Assembly: GCA_030665765.1 (NCBI GenBank)
Contig: DAOUZE010000005.1
Span: 1-33,717 of the forward strand
From: Filomicrobium sp.
Lineage (GTDB): Bacteria > Pseudomonadota > Alphaproteobacteria > Rhizobiales > Hyphomicrobiaceae
Length of the DNA: 33,717 nucleotides
Reading direction: 5' to 3'
Positions 11,039 through 16,026 of this stretch are shown here, piece after piece (the first letter of the stretch is position 1; each line of letters begins with the position of its first letter). A program made the position numbers and the translations under genes. The notes beneath the pieces were generated by a model, which worked only from the letters and a program-made list of their open reading frames with translations, did no database searches and was not told the origin of the DNA.

Positions 11039-11524
11039 TCACTTCCGTGGCGTCATCTCAAATCCAACGGTGTCGAGGATACCTGGTAGCACCTCATTGA
11101 TGCGGACCGAGTCGACGTCGTCTTTATGCAGGACTTCGGCGGCGCCCGCCTTCATCAGGTCCATACGCCGTCTGCGGGTTGCGACACCGCTGACGACCAC
11201 GATGGGGCCCGCGTATCCGACGCGGCGCAGATACGGAATGGAATCGGAAGCTCGGTCGGCAGACAGTTCGAGATTGTCATCGAGTAGGATCAATTGCGGC
11301 TTGTGCTTCAGCACCTGGTCAATCGCGCTCGATAGTGTATTGGCCTCGCGCACATCGATCTCATAGCCAAACATCAGGTGCAGTGTGGCGCGCAAACGCT
11401 TTATGTCCGTGCTGCAGTCATCGACCACCAGGACATTTGTCAGCTTCGGCATCTTTTTGAGTGATTTGGTGAGGCCGCTCTTTCTATCGAGAAAATCTCC
11501 GCCGGAGGTGGATGACTCCGCCAT
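11039..11524 (-). CDS. Stand-alone response-regulator receiver protein
   Basis: VLVVDDCSTD acidic pocket, LILLDDNLE phospho-acceptor Asp, VVVSGVA, VLHKDD conserved Lys; no output domain. Confidence 0.88.
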   Translation of the reverse strand: MAESSTSGGDFLDRKSGLTKSLKKMPKLTNVLVVDDCSTDIKRLRATLHLMFGYEIDVREANTLSSAIDQVLKHKPQLILLDDNLELSADRASDSIPYLRRVGYAGPIVVVSGVATRRRRMDLMKAGAAEVLHKDDVDSVRINEVLPGILDTVGFEMTPRK

Positions 11525-11677
11525 TACCGTATTCTCCTGTTCGGGTGCACCAGAGGTGAAACTGACTGCTCTTGTGCGGGTGCGCAGAACTTACATCAAT
11601 CAAACGGCCGCGAACGGATGTTGTTGTCGCAGAAAACAAGCAATGCCGCAATGTCAGGTGTGTCGCCTAGTCGAAAC

Positions 11678-12937
11678 TCATCGATCAGCAGTGGTTTCCT
11701 GGCACGGTATCAGCGGCCAGGAGAGCTGGAATTCGCTACCTCGTCGCTCAGATGGATTTGAGATCAGGTGCAGTTGACCACCCACGGTTTCGACGGTGCG
11801 TTTTACGAAAGCGAGCCCCATGCCGTGCGTGAGTTCTGCGTTGGGTTGGCAGCCGCCATCGGGACCTCTTCGATAACTACGAAATGGGTAGAACACCGCT
11901 TCCTGACGTTTGAGGGGGATACCTGGACCGTTGTCGCTCACCGTTACAGAAAGATGGTCATCGGTTAGTTTCGCGAATACACGGACCCAGCCCGCCTCGG
12001 GTTTGTCGTGATGCTTGATGGCATTGTCGACCAAGTTGCGCAGTACGAGATCGAACGGAGCGACATAGGTTTCGATGTTCGGCCAGTCGCCTTGGACTTC
12101 GATTGTGAACCTGTGAGGGCGCGGGAGCGAACTGACTATTGAATCAATCAAGTGTCGGCTATTGAGATGCTCCAATGTCTCCGTTTGGCGGCCGAGGCTG
12201 GCATAGTCGAGCAACTGCGAGAGCATTGTCGACATGCGTCGTGACTGCTGTTTCAAGGCTGCGCAGGCTTTGTGGGCGTCTTGCGGTCGTGCTTGACTGA
12301 GCGCGGTTTCGATATCGTCTGTGAAATAGCGTAGTGCGCGCATTGGAGCCTTGAGGTCGTGCGAGATAACTGTCGCAAAGTCCTCAAGGTCGCGGTTACA
12401 CAGCTCAAGCTCGGCGTTGGTGCGCTCCAGTTCGAGCTTTTGTTGTTCGATTTGTTCGAGCAGGATGGTGCGGTCGCGTTGCAGCCTTGCCAGCGTAGTG
12501 TCGGTACTCGAGTGGCCGCTGGCGCGCGTCACGAGCAGCAGAAATTCGTCGTTGTTGATTATAGGGGGCTGATCTTTGAGCGTCGACTCGCCGACGCTGT
12601 GTTCGGTTATTTCGGGATGACTGCGGAAAACGTAAATGTCGATCCGCGGTGTATCCGTGCCTTCGCCATTAACGAGGAGAATGCCGGGGAGTTCGAACGA
12701 GGTGCGGCCATCCGCAGGCAGGTTTTGAATATCGTCCAGGTAGTCGGCTAAAAATGGCAAACCCGATGAGACCGCTTCGCCAACTCCGAGGCTGGCAGTG
12801 AGATCACCAAAACGAGCTGTGACGATAAAACTAGCATCGAGCCAGGCCATGCCGTAGATGCCGTTGCGGGCGAGCAGCAATCCGGCGCTGAGTAGGGGAG
12901 AGGGTTTAGAGAGACCCATGACATTCTCCGTCATCAC
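11678..12937 (-). CDS. Soluble sensor histidine kinase (HisKA-HATPase_c)
   Basis: Coiled coil, H-box FATVISHDLKAPMRALRYF, N-box LVLRNLVDNAIKHHD, G1 SDNGPGIP, G2 GMGLAFVKRTVE; no obvious transmembrane helix. Confidence 0.94.
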   Translation of the reverse strand: MMTENVMGLSKPSPLLSAGLLLARNGIYGMAWLDASFIVTARFGDLTASLGVGEAVSSGLPFLADYLDDIQNLPADGRTSFELPGILLVNGEGTDTPRIDIYVFRSHPEITEHSVGESTLKDQPPIINNDEFLLLVTRASGHSSTDTTLARLQRDRTILLEQIEQQKLELERTNAELELCNRDLEDFATVISHDLKAPMRALRYFTDDIETALSQARPQDAHKACAALKQQSRRMSTMLSQLLDYASLGRQTETLEHLNSRHLIDSIVSSLPRPHRFTIEVQGDWPNIETYVAPFDLVLRNLVDNAIKHHDKPEAGWVRVFAKLTDDHLSVTVSDNGPGIPLKRQEAVFYPFRSYRRGPDGGCQPNAELTHGMGLAFVKRTVETVGGQLHLISNPSERRGSEFQLSWPLIPCQETTADR

Positions 12938-13443
12938 AGTCCGCGGCGTAAAATTGCATCCGCAGTCGCGTGGAAGGCGACATCGACGTTTTCGCCGGTC
13001 TTGGCGCTGGTTTTGAAGAGCGGTTCTGTTGTCTCCGCGCGCAGTTCCTCAGGCAGTTCGGGTGTGTCGGTGTCCGGAAAGAGATCGGATTTATTGAGCA
13101 GCAAGCTAAGTGGGCGGCCGGCACGTGCTTCGCGCCAGCCCGTGGTAAGTCCGGCCATGGCCTTCAAAGTTGCCGGGCGGGTGGAATCGCCGACGATGAT
13201 GGCTGCTGAAGCGTTCTTCAGGTAGACGCTTGAAAATATGGTCTGGCCGAAGTTGCCGTCGGTGTCCCAGATGAGCAACGTCACGGCCGGACGGTCGTCG
13301 GTTTCGGGCAAGTTGTAAGTGTAGATCTCGACATTGATGGTCGGCATGTAGTCGGTGCGGTATCGGCCATGCACGAGGCGATTAACGAGGGACGTTTTGC
13401 CCACCCCAATTTCGCCCAGCAGCATAATTTTGCGCGATGTCAC
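12934..13443 (-). CDS. Rab/Ras-like small GTPase
   Basis: G1 GEIGVGKTSLV, switch-I DYMPTINVE, G3 LLIWDTDGNF, G4 LLLNKSDL, G5 FKTSAKTGENVD; ATGA overlaps on both sides. Confidence 0.92.
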   Translation of the reverse strand: MTSRKIMLLGEIGVGKTSLVNRLVHGRYRTDYMPTINVEIYTYNLPETDDRPAVTLLIWDTDGNFGQTIFSSVYLKNASAAIIVGDSTRPATLKAMAGLTTGWREARAGRPLSLLLNKSDLFPDTDTPELPEELRAETTEPLFKTSAKTGENVDVAFHATADAILRRGL

Positions 13444-15617
13444 TCGGACGCTTCTCCAACAAAGCCCAGTTCGAATTCGACGCGGCGGTTGGGGCTCGAT
13501 GCTCCAATAACGGACGAGATGCCCTTCAGATCGTGGCGGCCGACGGAGACCATCCGGTTGGCGGGTACGCCGCGACGTATCAATTCCTGCATGACAACAT
13601 TGGCCCGGTTTTGCGACAATGGTGAGTTGTGTTGCGAGGTGCCCTGCTCATCGGTGAAGCCGACGATGCGGATATGCGCATCGCTGGCCATTATCAGTTG
13701 AGCAAGTTCGTCAAGATGCTTGGCGGTGACCGCTAGGTTCCGGAAGTCGGTTTCGCTGGAGAAGAAGATCGCGTGGGAGTCGATCCAGGCCGCGAGCTGT
13801 TCGTGCGGTGTTGGTGCGGTAGGCGGCGGGATTTCAATGGGTGGCTGTTTGACGTTGGCAGCCTGCGCAAGCGCTACGGTCAGGGTGGCGAACTGCTCGA
13901 CTTGGACCGCCATCGCTTCGGTCTCCAACATCAGGTTTCCGGTCTCGGCGGTGTTGGTGGCCATGGGCTCGGAACGTGCGGCTTGTGGATCAAGCAGGGA
14001 TGTTAGCTCATCGGCTGCCGAGGCTATGCGCGCCCGCAGGGCTGGCAAGTGTTGGCTCAGATCGCGATTGGCGACGGTGCTATCCGCTCCGGCGGCCAGT
14101 TCGCGCAGGGATTCGAGTTCCCCTCTAACATCGGACACGGTTGCGGCAGCGGAACTGGCGATGGCCCGTGCTTCAGGGCTATCGACGTTCTGCTGGAGAC
14201 GCTGCAGGTCGGCGGGGACCGCGGTCAGCCGTTGGATCGTGCGCGCGATGCTGCTGTCAAAGGCCTGCCGTTGGAGACGTCGAGGTAATTCATCGAGCTG
14301 TTGGCGAAGATCGCTGATCAGGGGGGTTGCGTCGGGAGTGGTGGGAACGACGTTCAGTTCATCATTGACTGTGACGCCGGTCAGCTCTGTCTCGAGCCGC
14401 GAGATGATATCAGTCTTGGCGGCTGGTGTTGGCGCGAGACCGGCCAGTGAGACTTCCTTGCCAAAGTCGGTCACGGTTAGGCGGACAGGGTAACCGCGCA
14501 TCGATTGGGTTTCAGAAATGACAGTGTTGGCACGTTCTCGGACTCGTTCGGCTGTGAAGACGTTGTAGCCGGTCCAGACCAGCCATGCGGTTAGGGCGAG
14601 GACCACGAGCCAAGCCATTGCCTTCAGCACGAACCAGCCGGTTTTGTCTTCTTCAATCTCGCGTCTGATTGCATCAATGCGTGACTGGATGTTCTCGGCG
14701 GTGTCGGAGAGGAGATCGGTTTGCTGGTTGGCCTCGTTGCTTGTCGCCAATTCATCCCAATGCGATTGGCGGCGCTCGAGCGTGGACATGAACTCTTCGT
14801 CGATTAGCCGCTCGACGGTGGCGTTGGCGACACCAGAACATTTCGCGGCGAGCAAGAGCCGCGGTGAGGCGCGCAGATAGACCTGGGCGGTGTTGAGGTC
14901 GATCTGGCGCAGGGATGAAGCTTCGTCGGCAAAAGCCTCCAGCGAGAATTCGTTGATGGCGGTCAGGATGCCGCTCATCACCTGATCGCGGTCCGGATGG
15001 CCGTCGTTGCCTGGCCAACGTGCCAGCAGTTCGCCGGAGCCGCGGCGGATGAGGTAGACTTCCTCGACCCGTAGATCCTGGGATCTCGCCAGCGCCAATT
15101 CCGCCATCGAGCGGCCGGTGGCTATGCTCTTGAGCCACAGCATCGTCGAGTTCGCCGTCATCTGGCGATCGATACGCTGGGTGAGTTCGCGGATAGCACT
15201 GGCCACATAGGACTGAACGAGACGGCCGGTTATGGGGTAGAGCGCTTCGACCAGTTCGTCCTGGCTTTCGTGGATTTCGCGCTTGATCGTGCGGATCACC
15301 AGAGGTGCCATCGCCTGAGACAGCTCATTGTGGTGCTTGATCTCGGCTTCGGACAGCGCACGGTCGAGAACTTCGGCAACGCTCGTTTTAAAGCGGTCTT
15401 CGGTGCCAGCGCGCGAAAAGACATCTTCGAGCTGGCCTATGACCTCATTGCGAAATGTCGCTTCGGCGTCAGCGAGGCGGTTGAGGTCACGCGATAGCGC
15501 GGCGCGTTGATCGGTGCCGAGTTTGGCTACGGCTTCGACGCGGCGTTGCAAATCGGTGAGAGCTTGAGATTCATGCTCAAAGAGCAGTTCTTTTAGCTTT
15601 GTGACGCCTTGCGACAT
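13440..15617 (-). CDS. Inner-membrane OmpA-family protein: cytoplasmic helical/longin-like region, one TM helix, BON-like domain, coiled coil, OmpA peptidoglycan-binding domain
   Basis: TM MAWLVVLALTAWLVWTGYNVF; BON-like RERANTVISETQSMRGYPVRLTVTDFGKEVSLAGLAPTPAAK; OmpA core IRIVGFTDEQGTSQHNSPLSQNRANVVMQELIRRGV. ATG at 15617 (MSQGVTKLKELLF) is an alternative to the ORF start at 15638. Confidence 0.9.
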   Translation of the reverse strand: MSQGVTKLKELLFEHESQALTDLQRRVEAVAKLGTDQRAALSRDLNRLADAEATFRNEVIGQLEDVFSRAGTEDRFKTSVAEVLDRALSEAEIKHHNELSQAMAPLVIRTIKREIHESQDELVEALYPITGRLVQSYVASAIRELTQRIDRQMTANSTMLWLKSIATGRSMAELALARSQDLRVEEVYLIRRGSGELLARWPGNDGHPDRDQVMSGILTAINEFSLEAFADEASSLRQIDLNTAQVYLRASPRLLLAAKCSGVANATVERLIDEEFMSTLERRQSHWDELATSNEANQQTDLLSDTAENIQSRIDAIRREIEEDKTGWFVLKAMAWLVVLALTAWLVWTGYNVFTAERVRERANTVISETQSMRGYPVRLTVTDFGKEVSLAGLAPTPAAKTDIISRLETELTGVTVNDELNVVPTTPDATPLISDLRQQLDELPRRLQRQAFDSSIARTIQRLTAVPADLQRLQQNVDSPEARAIASSAAATVSDVRGELESLRELAAGADSTVANRDLSQHLPALRARIASAADELTSLLDPQAARSEPMATNTAETGNLMLETEAMAVQVEQFATLTVALAQAANVKQPPIEIPPPTAPTPHEQLAAWIDSHAIFFSSETDFRNLAVTAKHLDELAQLIMASDAHIRIVGFTDEQGTSQHNSPLSQNRANVVMQELIRRGVPANRMVSVGRHDLKGISSVIGASSPNRRVEFELGFVGEASE

Positions 15618-15702
15618 GGCGAGCGTAATACTTCCCAAGAAACGGCGAGTTTAGCCTTTTTGCAGGCAACCTGCAGGATGGAACCCGAGACTTTCGCGCC
15701 GG

Positions 15703-16026
15703 TCAGATGCGAGACAGGTCTTTTACGTGTTTGCCGAGATCGGCAATGCCTCGAGAGAGTGCGTCAAAAGCAGCCCGGTGTTGACTGCTGACTTCTCCAG
15801 ACATCGCCTCGACACGCGCCTGGATTGCGTCAATCTTGCGGGTCACATCGGTCTCGAGATGGGTCAAGCGGGTTTCGATCGCGGCAAGACGATCATCGGT
15901 GCGGCGTAGGTCATCGCCGACCAAGAGGTCGCGGACCTGATCCATCTTCTCGTCTGCAACCTTCCTTAAGGGTGCGCCGTTCCTCAGCAAGTCTAGGGAT
16001 GTTGCGGTCATTGCGTTACTCTTCAC
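15703..16026 (-). CDS. Small coiled-coil protein upstream of the OmpA/GTPase operon
   Basis: Heptad-rich DDRLAAIETRLTHLETDVTRKIDAIQARVEAMSGEV; same strand, 64-85 nt upstream of the OmpA-family gene. Confidence 0.65.
   Translation of the reverse strand: MKSNAMTATSLDLLRNGAPLRKVADEKMDQVRDLLVGDDLRRTDDRLAAIETRLTHLETDVTRKIDAIQARVEAMSGEVSSQHRAAFDALSRGIADLGKHVKDLSRI

Follow-up and report, generated by a model that had tools for sequence, protein, structure and literature searches.

Organization of the locus

The window, a 33,717-nucleotide stretch of DNA from Filomicrobium sp. (contig DAOUZE010000005.1), carries a five-gene operon between positions 11039 and 16026. All five open reading frames lie on the minus strand at the coordinates given in the earlier note, and its account of five same-strand genes in a fixed order was borne out by ORF calls and Pfam. 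In the order of transcription, the operon encodes a small coiled-coil protein of about 102-107 residues (gene 1, 15703..16026, supported by ORF calls, Pfam and alignment), a single-pass inner-membrane protein with a C-terminal OmpA domain (gene 2, 13440..15617, or 13440-15638 with a TTG start; ORF calls, Pfam, homologue alignment and hydropathy), a Ras/Rab-like GTPase (gene 3, 12934..13443; Pfam, PDB matches and motifs), a cytoplasmic histidine kinase (gene 4, 11678..12937; Pfam, alignment and a structural model) and a stand-alone receiver (gene 5, 11039..11524; PF00072 and alignment). For the OmpA protein, ATG 15617 is the probable start, since the alignment with most close homologues begins at residue 8; TTG 15638 is a possible alternative.

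Two 4-nt ATGA overlaps had been read at 13440/13443 and 12934/12937, but both sequences are in fact GTGA. The OmpA/GTPase overlap is convincing since GGAG lies 10 nt upstream of the GTG of the GTPase gene. The GTPase/kinase overlap, which requires GTG 12937, is doubtful because ATG 12919, about 15 nt past the GTPase stop, has GGAG 6 nt upstream; this ATG has the better ribosome-binding site and is probably the kinase start, in which case the genes do not overlap. Gaps of 153 nt between kinase and receiver and of 85 nt between the coiled-coil and OmpA genes limit tight packing to the central part of the operon. No terminator-like site was found in the minus-strand gaps, and promoter and terminator scans gave no excess over chance as set by shuffled sequences.

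The coiled-coil protein matches coiled-coil families only, none of them above the curated Pfam cut-off. Its N-terminus carries the motif DEKMDQVRDLLVGD (DEKMxQVRxLLxG), which is similar to the opening helix of the OmpA protein; an hhalign comparison with the N-terminal helices of that protein gave P 6.5e-6. This suggests that the two may dock on the same partner. A common R/K-x-LL-x-G/D-x-E-like motif can be read in the coiled-coil protein (15703-16026, minus strand) and the first OmpA helix (15530-15617, minus strand). At one distant locus (L085:225-5108, plus strand), the coiled-coil gene is flanked by two OmpA-type proteins of this family, suggesting a duplication.

A predicted longin/roadblock fold in the OmpA protein

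A hydropathy scan of the five proteins found a single membrane segment, in the OmpA protein (14577..14633, minus strand; Kyte-Doolittle peak 2.17), and none in the coiled-coil protein, GTPase, kinase or receiver. The N-terminal half of the OmpA protein has no signal peptide. On the other side of the membrane segment is a periplasmic OmpA-like peptidoglycan-binding domain (13467..13727, minus strand; PF00691, 3.1e-10), among whose invariant columns are D656 and R671 (numbered from ATG 15617), 15 residues apart. Such an Asp/Arg pair binds peptidoglycan in other OmpA-like proteins.

The cytoplasmic domain (residues ~157-292 from ATG 15617; 14742..15149, minus strand) has no Pfam match above the curated cut-off. 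In an AlphaFold2 model built with 42 homologues (mean pLDDT 85.6), long helices precede an a-bb-a-bbb-a arrangement, and in a Foldseek comparison with the PDB the best 50 matches were all longin/roadblock proteins or complexes built on them, with modest E-values from 3e-4 to about 1e-2. They include AP sigma, zeta-COP, Mon1-Ccz1 bound to the Rab protein Ypt7, TRAPP, BLOC-3 and Fuzzy-Inturned, as well as Ragulator/Gtr, roadblock proteins of axonemal complexes and MglB bound to MglA. We therefore predict a longin/roadblock fold for this domain, an assignment that rests on one AlphaFold2 model and is the main new finding of this study. The best-known members of this fold regulate small GTPases, while some longin domains, such as those of AP sigma and zeta-COP, are inert scaffolds.

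Sequence comparison contributed little to the assignment. Neither a Robl_LC7 (PF03259) match nor a clear profile similarity was found for the cytoplasmic domain, and a profile search against PDB sequences returned nothing useful. An hhalign comparison with roadblock proteins gave a weak P of 0.0065 (best of 20 column shuffles, 0.16), and was dropped as proof of the fold because the N-terminal helical control scored 0.0075.

A Rab-like GTPase lacking the catalytic glutamine

Gene 3 encodes a single-domain protein of the Ras superfamily (PF00071, 6.7e-21) which is closest to Rab proteins in the PDB (Ypt51, 2.5e-16). All of the motifs G1 to G5 are present, and G1 (GEIGVGKT), G4 (NKSD) and G5 (TSAK) are canonical. 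G3 reads WDTDGN, with Asn following DxxG in the window; no locus with a readable G3 has Gln there, so that the catalytic glutamine (Gln61) is missing from every GTPase in which this motif was read. The window GTPase has no C-terminal Cys for lipidation.

The kinase, its N-terminal domain and the receiver

The kinase matches HisKA (4e-7) and HATPase_c (6e-21), with H193 (codon 12361-12359) in SHDLKAPMR and intact N, G1 and G2 boxes. The receiver (Response_reg, PF00072, 7e-10) has the acidic pair D35/D36, the phosphoacceptor D82 and the conserved Lys (HKDD). The two-component signatures are thus all present, and the absence of an evident membrane segment from the kinase and of an output domain from the receiver, both remarked on earlier, holds. 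Among the distant loci, one kinase (L088:4970-6082, minus strand) reads SRELRTPL where the phosphoacceptor His of SHEL is expected, and may be a pseudokinase.

In the structural model, the PAS-like domain of the kinase (residues 28-138; 12524..12856, minus strand) leads into a long signalling helix, and the HisKA/HATPase core is complete. R154 and R156 (RxR), at the start of the signalling helix, are invariant in 17 of the 17 aligned family members. The N-terminus is homologous to the N-termini of the cyclases and kinases that take the output position elsewhere (E 4e-6 to 1e-7 against the cyclases, compared with mostly 0.1-0.6 for unrelated controls); no homology was detected to the N-termini of the GGDEF-EAL proteins. 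A profile of this domain (A7) found it in 16 of 39 related genomes, every one of them a carrier of the GTPase. The matches adjoin the GTPase gene (in one assembly, G004, following a GTPase fragment at a contig start), bar one that begins a separate short contig in the fragmented assembly G037. Exclusivity to GTPase genomes, together with homology to the cyclase N-termini, points to a dedicated GTPase-linked effector domain, and we propose the PAS-like region as the putative GTPase-binding module.

Conservation of the core and diversity of the outputs

The earlier note had proposed a gene-neighbourhood search as a check, and related genomes do keep the order: all five genes are found in sequence across Hyphomicrobiaceae, and wherever the contig of a relative extends beyond the kinase the receiver is there too (18 of 18). 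Of the 39 related genomes, 17 have the GTPase, and the cytoplasmic domain of the OmpA protein occurs in exactly the same 17. G028 is the sole GTPase genome without the kinase N-terminal domain, and there no kinase follows the GTPase. Farther away, in other Pseudomonadota and on one cyanobacterial plasmid, the trio of coiled-coil, OmpA and GTPase genes is adjacent in 33 of the 33 distant loci read out.

What follows the distant trios varies, and can be a histidine kinase, a hybrid kinase, a class III adenylate/guanylate cyclase, a GGDEF-EAL protein or nothing. Eight class III cyclases, Mesorhizobium among them, and three GGDEF-EAL proteins were confirmed, the former by Pfam. Class III cyclases are an output type not named in the part of Wuichet & Sogaard-Andersen 2014 (PMC4316618) available to us. 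Cyclase genes after the GTPase core were observed at L113:3924-8569 (Mesorhizobium plasmid pWSM1497), L099, L100, L103-L105 and L112. Several families of the same order, some rhizobial relatives included, have the trio without an adjacent output gene, and the kinase is therefore not obligatory. In such loci (L093-L097) the trio stands alone and the G3 of the GTPase reads DTDGD.

On a GTPase tree, which left out the 71 sequences and the outgroups of PMC4316618, output type changes 9 times, compared with 28 times when labels are shuffled. The window's clade, composed of loci with kinase and receiver and of loci with no output gene, is separate (100/99) from the rest of the tree, where one clade holds the cyclase and GGDEF-EAL loci and those of Nostoc and Mesorhizobium.

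A candidate trans-envelope GTPase module

The computed results for this locus are the order of its genes, the anatomy of their domains, catalytic motifs that are intact, co-occurrence, a shared N-terminal domain and a predicted fold. The reading we prefer, to which we give about an even chance, is a trans-envelope GTPase module in which a wall-anchored longin-domain regulator would act on the GTPase, the GTPase on the PAS-like domain of the kinase, and the kinase on the receiver. The OmpA protein would be held by peptidoglycan outside and expose its longin/roadblock-type domain inside. This domain, probably as a dimer and with the help of the coiled-coil partner, would determine which nucleotide the GTPase carries, most likely by activating it in the manner of a GEF. 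Once loaded with GTP, the GTPase would bind the soluble kinase at its PAS-like N-terminus and signalling helix and alter kinase activity, and the kinase would phosphorylate the stand-alone receiver, which would act on further targets. In other lineages, the same core may drive class III cyclases, GGDEF-EAL proteins or hybrid kinases. The binding partners, a GEF rather than a GAP role, the order of signal flow and the state of the wall as stimulus are what we infer here. The chain from OmpA protein to GTPase, kinase and receiver suggested in the earlier note fits all of our findings, in particular the gene order, the co-occurrence, the Asp/Arg pair and the predicted regulator fold, but its composition had already been published.

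The signal could also run in the reverse order. The soluble kinase would then sense a cytoplasmic cue, its N-terminus would be a GAP or other regulator, and the GTPase would be an output acting on the OmpA protein and the envelope. The combination of an invariant output Gln with a GTPase lacking the catalytic Gln suggests catalysis in trans, as put forward in the available part of PMC4316618, and the absence of Gln61 wherever G3 was read fits this scheme, as does the QxxN(D/E)L-type motif that most outputs outside the window's family carry in place of RxR. Among 19 kinases of the window's own family, however, only 11 have Gln at the aligned position; the six of the Filomicrobium clade all have Leu or Met instead, and two others have Glu. 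The window kinase has Leu there, with a Gln displaced by one residue. The published Gln is thus unsupported as a catalytic residue in this lineage. Sequence comparison places the window in a separate clade of Alphaproteobacteria, where that Gln is absent or shifted and RxR is invariant. Moreover, the outputs are second-messenger or phosphorelay enzymes and resemble downstream effectors. Overall, we consider the reverse order unlikely.

Hyphomicrobium and Filomicrobium are budding, prosthecate bacteria, and wall-binding OmpA domains can anchor proteins. Both facts agree with a role in positioning, in which the wall-bound OmpA protein would mark a site such as the pole or the bud neck and the GTPase would recruit the kinase to it. 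Several relatives within the family whose assemblies are near-complete (G007, G010, G014 and G015) nevertheless lack the locus, and the module is therefore not needed for budding in general; nor was a polarity gene seen at the locus. The precedent is MglA, described as a polarity GTPase with a roadblock partner in the accessible portions of PMC2907295 and PMC9481161. A spatial landmark of this type seems to us no more probable than the reverse order. It is very improbable that the neighbourhood holds no single pathway and that the two-component pair is independent of the GTPase/OmpA unit beside it. Although the receiver lies 153 nt from the kinase and the trio occurs without a kinase in related families, the receiver is adjacent in every relative in which it could be read, and the kinase N-terminus is confined to genomes with the locus and common to the alternative outputs.

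Returning to the trans-envelope module, its fullest form would be a complete bacterial Rab-like cascade that spans the envelope from receptor to effector, made of a peptidoglycan-tethered transmembrane longin exchange factor, a Rab-like GTPase, and a dedicated PAS-like domain, the effector part, which can be joined to kinases, cyclases or c-di-GMP enzymes. We put this forward tentatively, as somewhat less probable than the module itself. Cascades of small Ras-like GTPases are rarely understood in bacteria. If the proposal is true, an unexplained domain would become a mechanism open to testing, in which a wall-binding membrane protein carries a GTPase-regulator fold on its inner side and the cell wall is linked to phosphorelay, cyclic-nucleotide and c-di-GMP signalling.

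Comparison with known systems

The composition of the locus is itself not new. It was published in 2014 as that of the Group 1 Rup loci, which, in the part of PMC4316618 available, comprise a coiled-coil protein, a protein with an unknown conserved domain, a membrane helix and an OmpA domain, a GTPase, and an output that is a GGDEF-EAL protein or a histidine kinase with an invariant N-terminal Gln. Wuichet & Sogaard-Andersen interpreted such loci as a signalling system and stated that the Rup family was then without an experimentally characterised member (PMC4316618). The literature we searched contained no experimental study of Rup or OmpA-GTPase loci, so that the earlier statement that no pathway of this composition has been characterised is correct. 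The window shares with Group 1 Rup the coiled-coil gene, the OmpA membrane protein with a conserved N-terminal domain, the GTPase without catalytic Gln and the adjacent output. Unlike the published loci, its output is a kinase with a separate receiver, and the published invariant Gln is lost while RxR is invariant instead. The longin/roadblock assignment, like the class III cyclase outputs, does not appear in the available part of PMC4316618. The window locus is best explained, on its sequence, as a divergent alphaproteobacterial relative of Group 1 Rup. What is new is the longin/roadblock prediction, the exclusivity of the kinase N-terminus and its homology to the cyclases, and the separate alphaproteobacterial clade with RxR.

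MglA/MglB of Myxococcus, cited earlier as a precedent, is a partial analogue: its Ras-like GTPase works with a roadblock/longin-fold protein, as is proposed for the window, and it likewise has links to response regulators. In contrast to MglA, which has Thr in G3, the window GTPase keeps Asp (WDTDG), and the longin-like domain of the window is part of one protein with a membrane segment and an OmpA domain. A genome-wide profile search of the window's genome found no MglB-type roadblock gene (PF03259). The actinobacterial conservons (CvnA-D) likewise combine a histidine kinase and a small GTPase in an operon, but their kinase is membrane-bound with HAMP, the roadblock protein CvnB is separate, CvnC is present and there is no receiver, whereas the window has a soluble kinase and a receiver, and leaves wall binding to another protein.

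The eukaryotic longin Rab GEFs (Mon1-Ccz1, TRAPP, BLOC-3 and Fuzzy-Inturned) have the fold that is predicted for the cytoplasmic part of the OmpA protein, whose candidate partner is likewise a Rab-like GTPase. The window protein, known here from predicted structure, differs from them in being bacterial and wall-anchored, and its domain has about 10-16% identity to theirs. If the cascade is true, bacteria would have a counterpart of the longin-GEF/Rab pairs of eukaryotes, and a pairing at the heart of eukaryotic membrane traffic would be placed in a bacterial setting.
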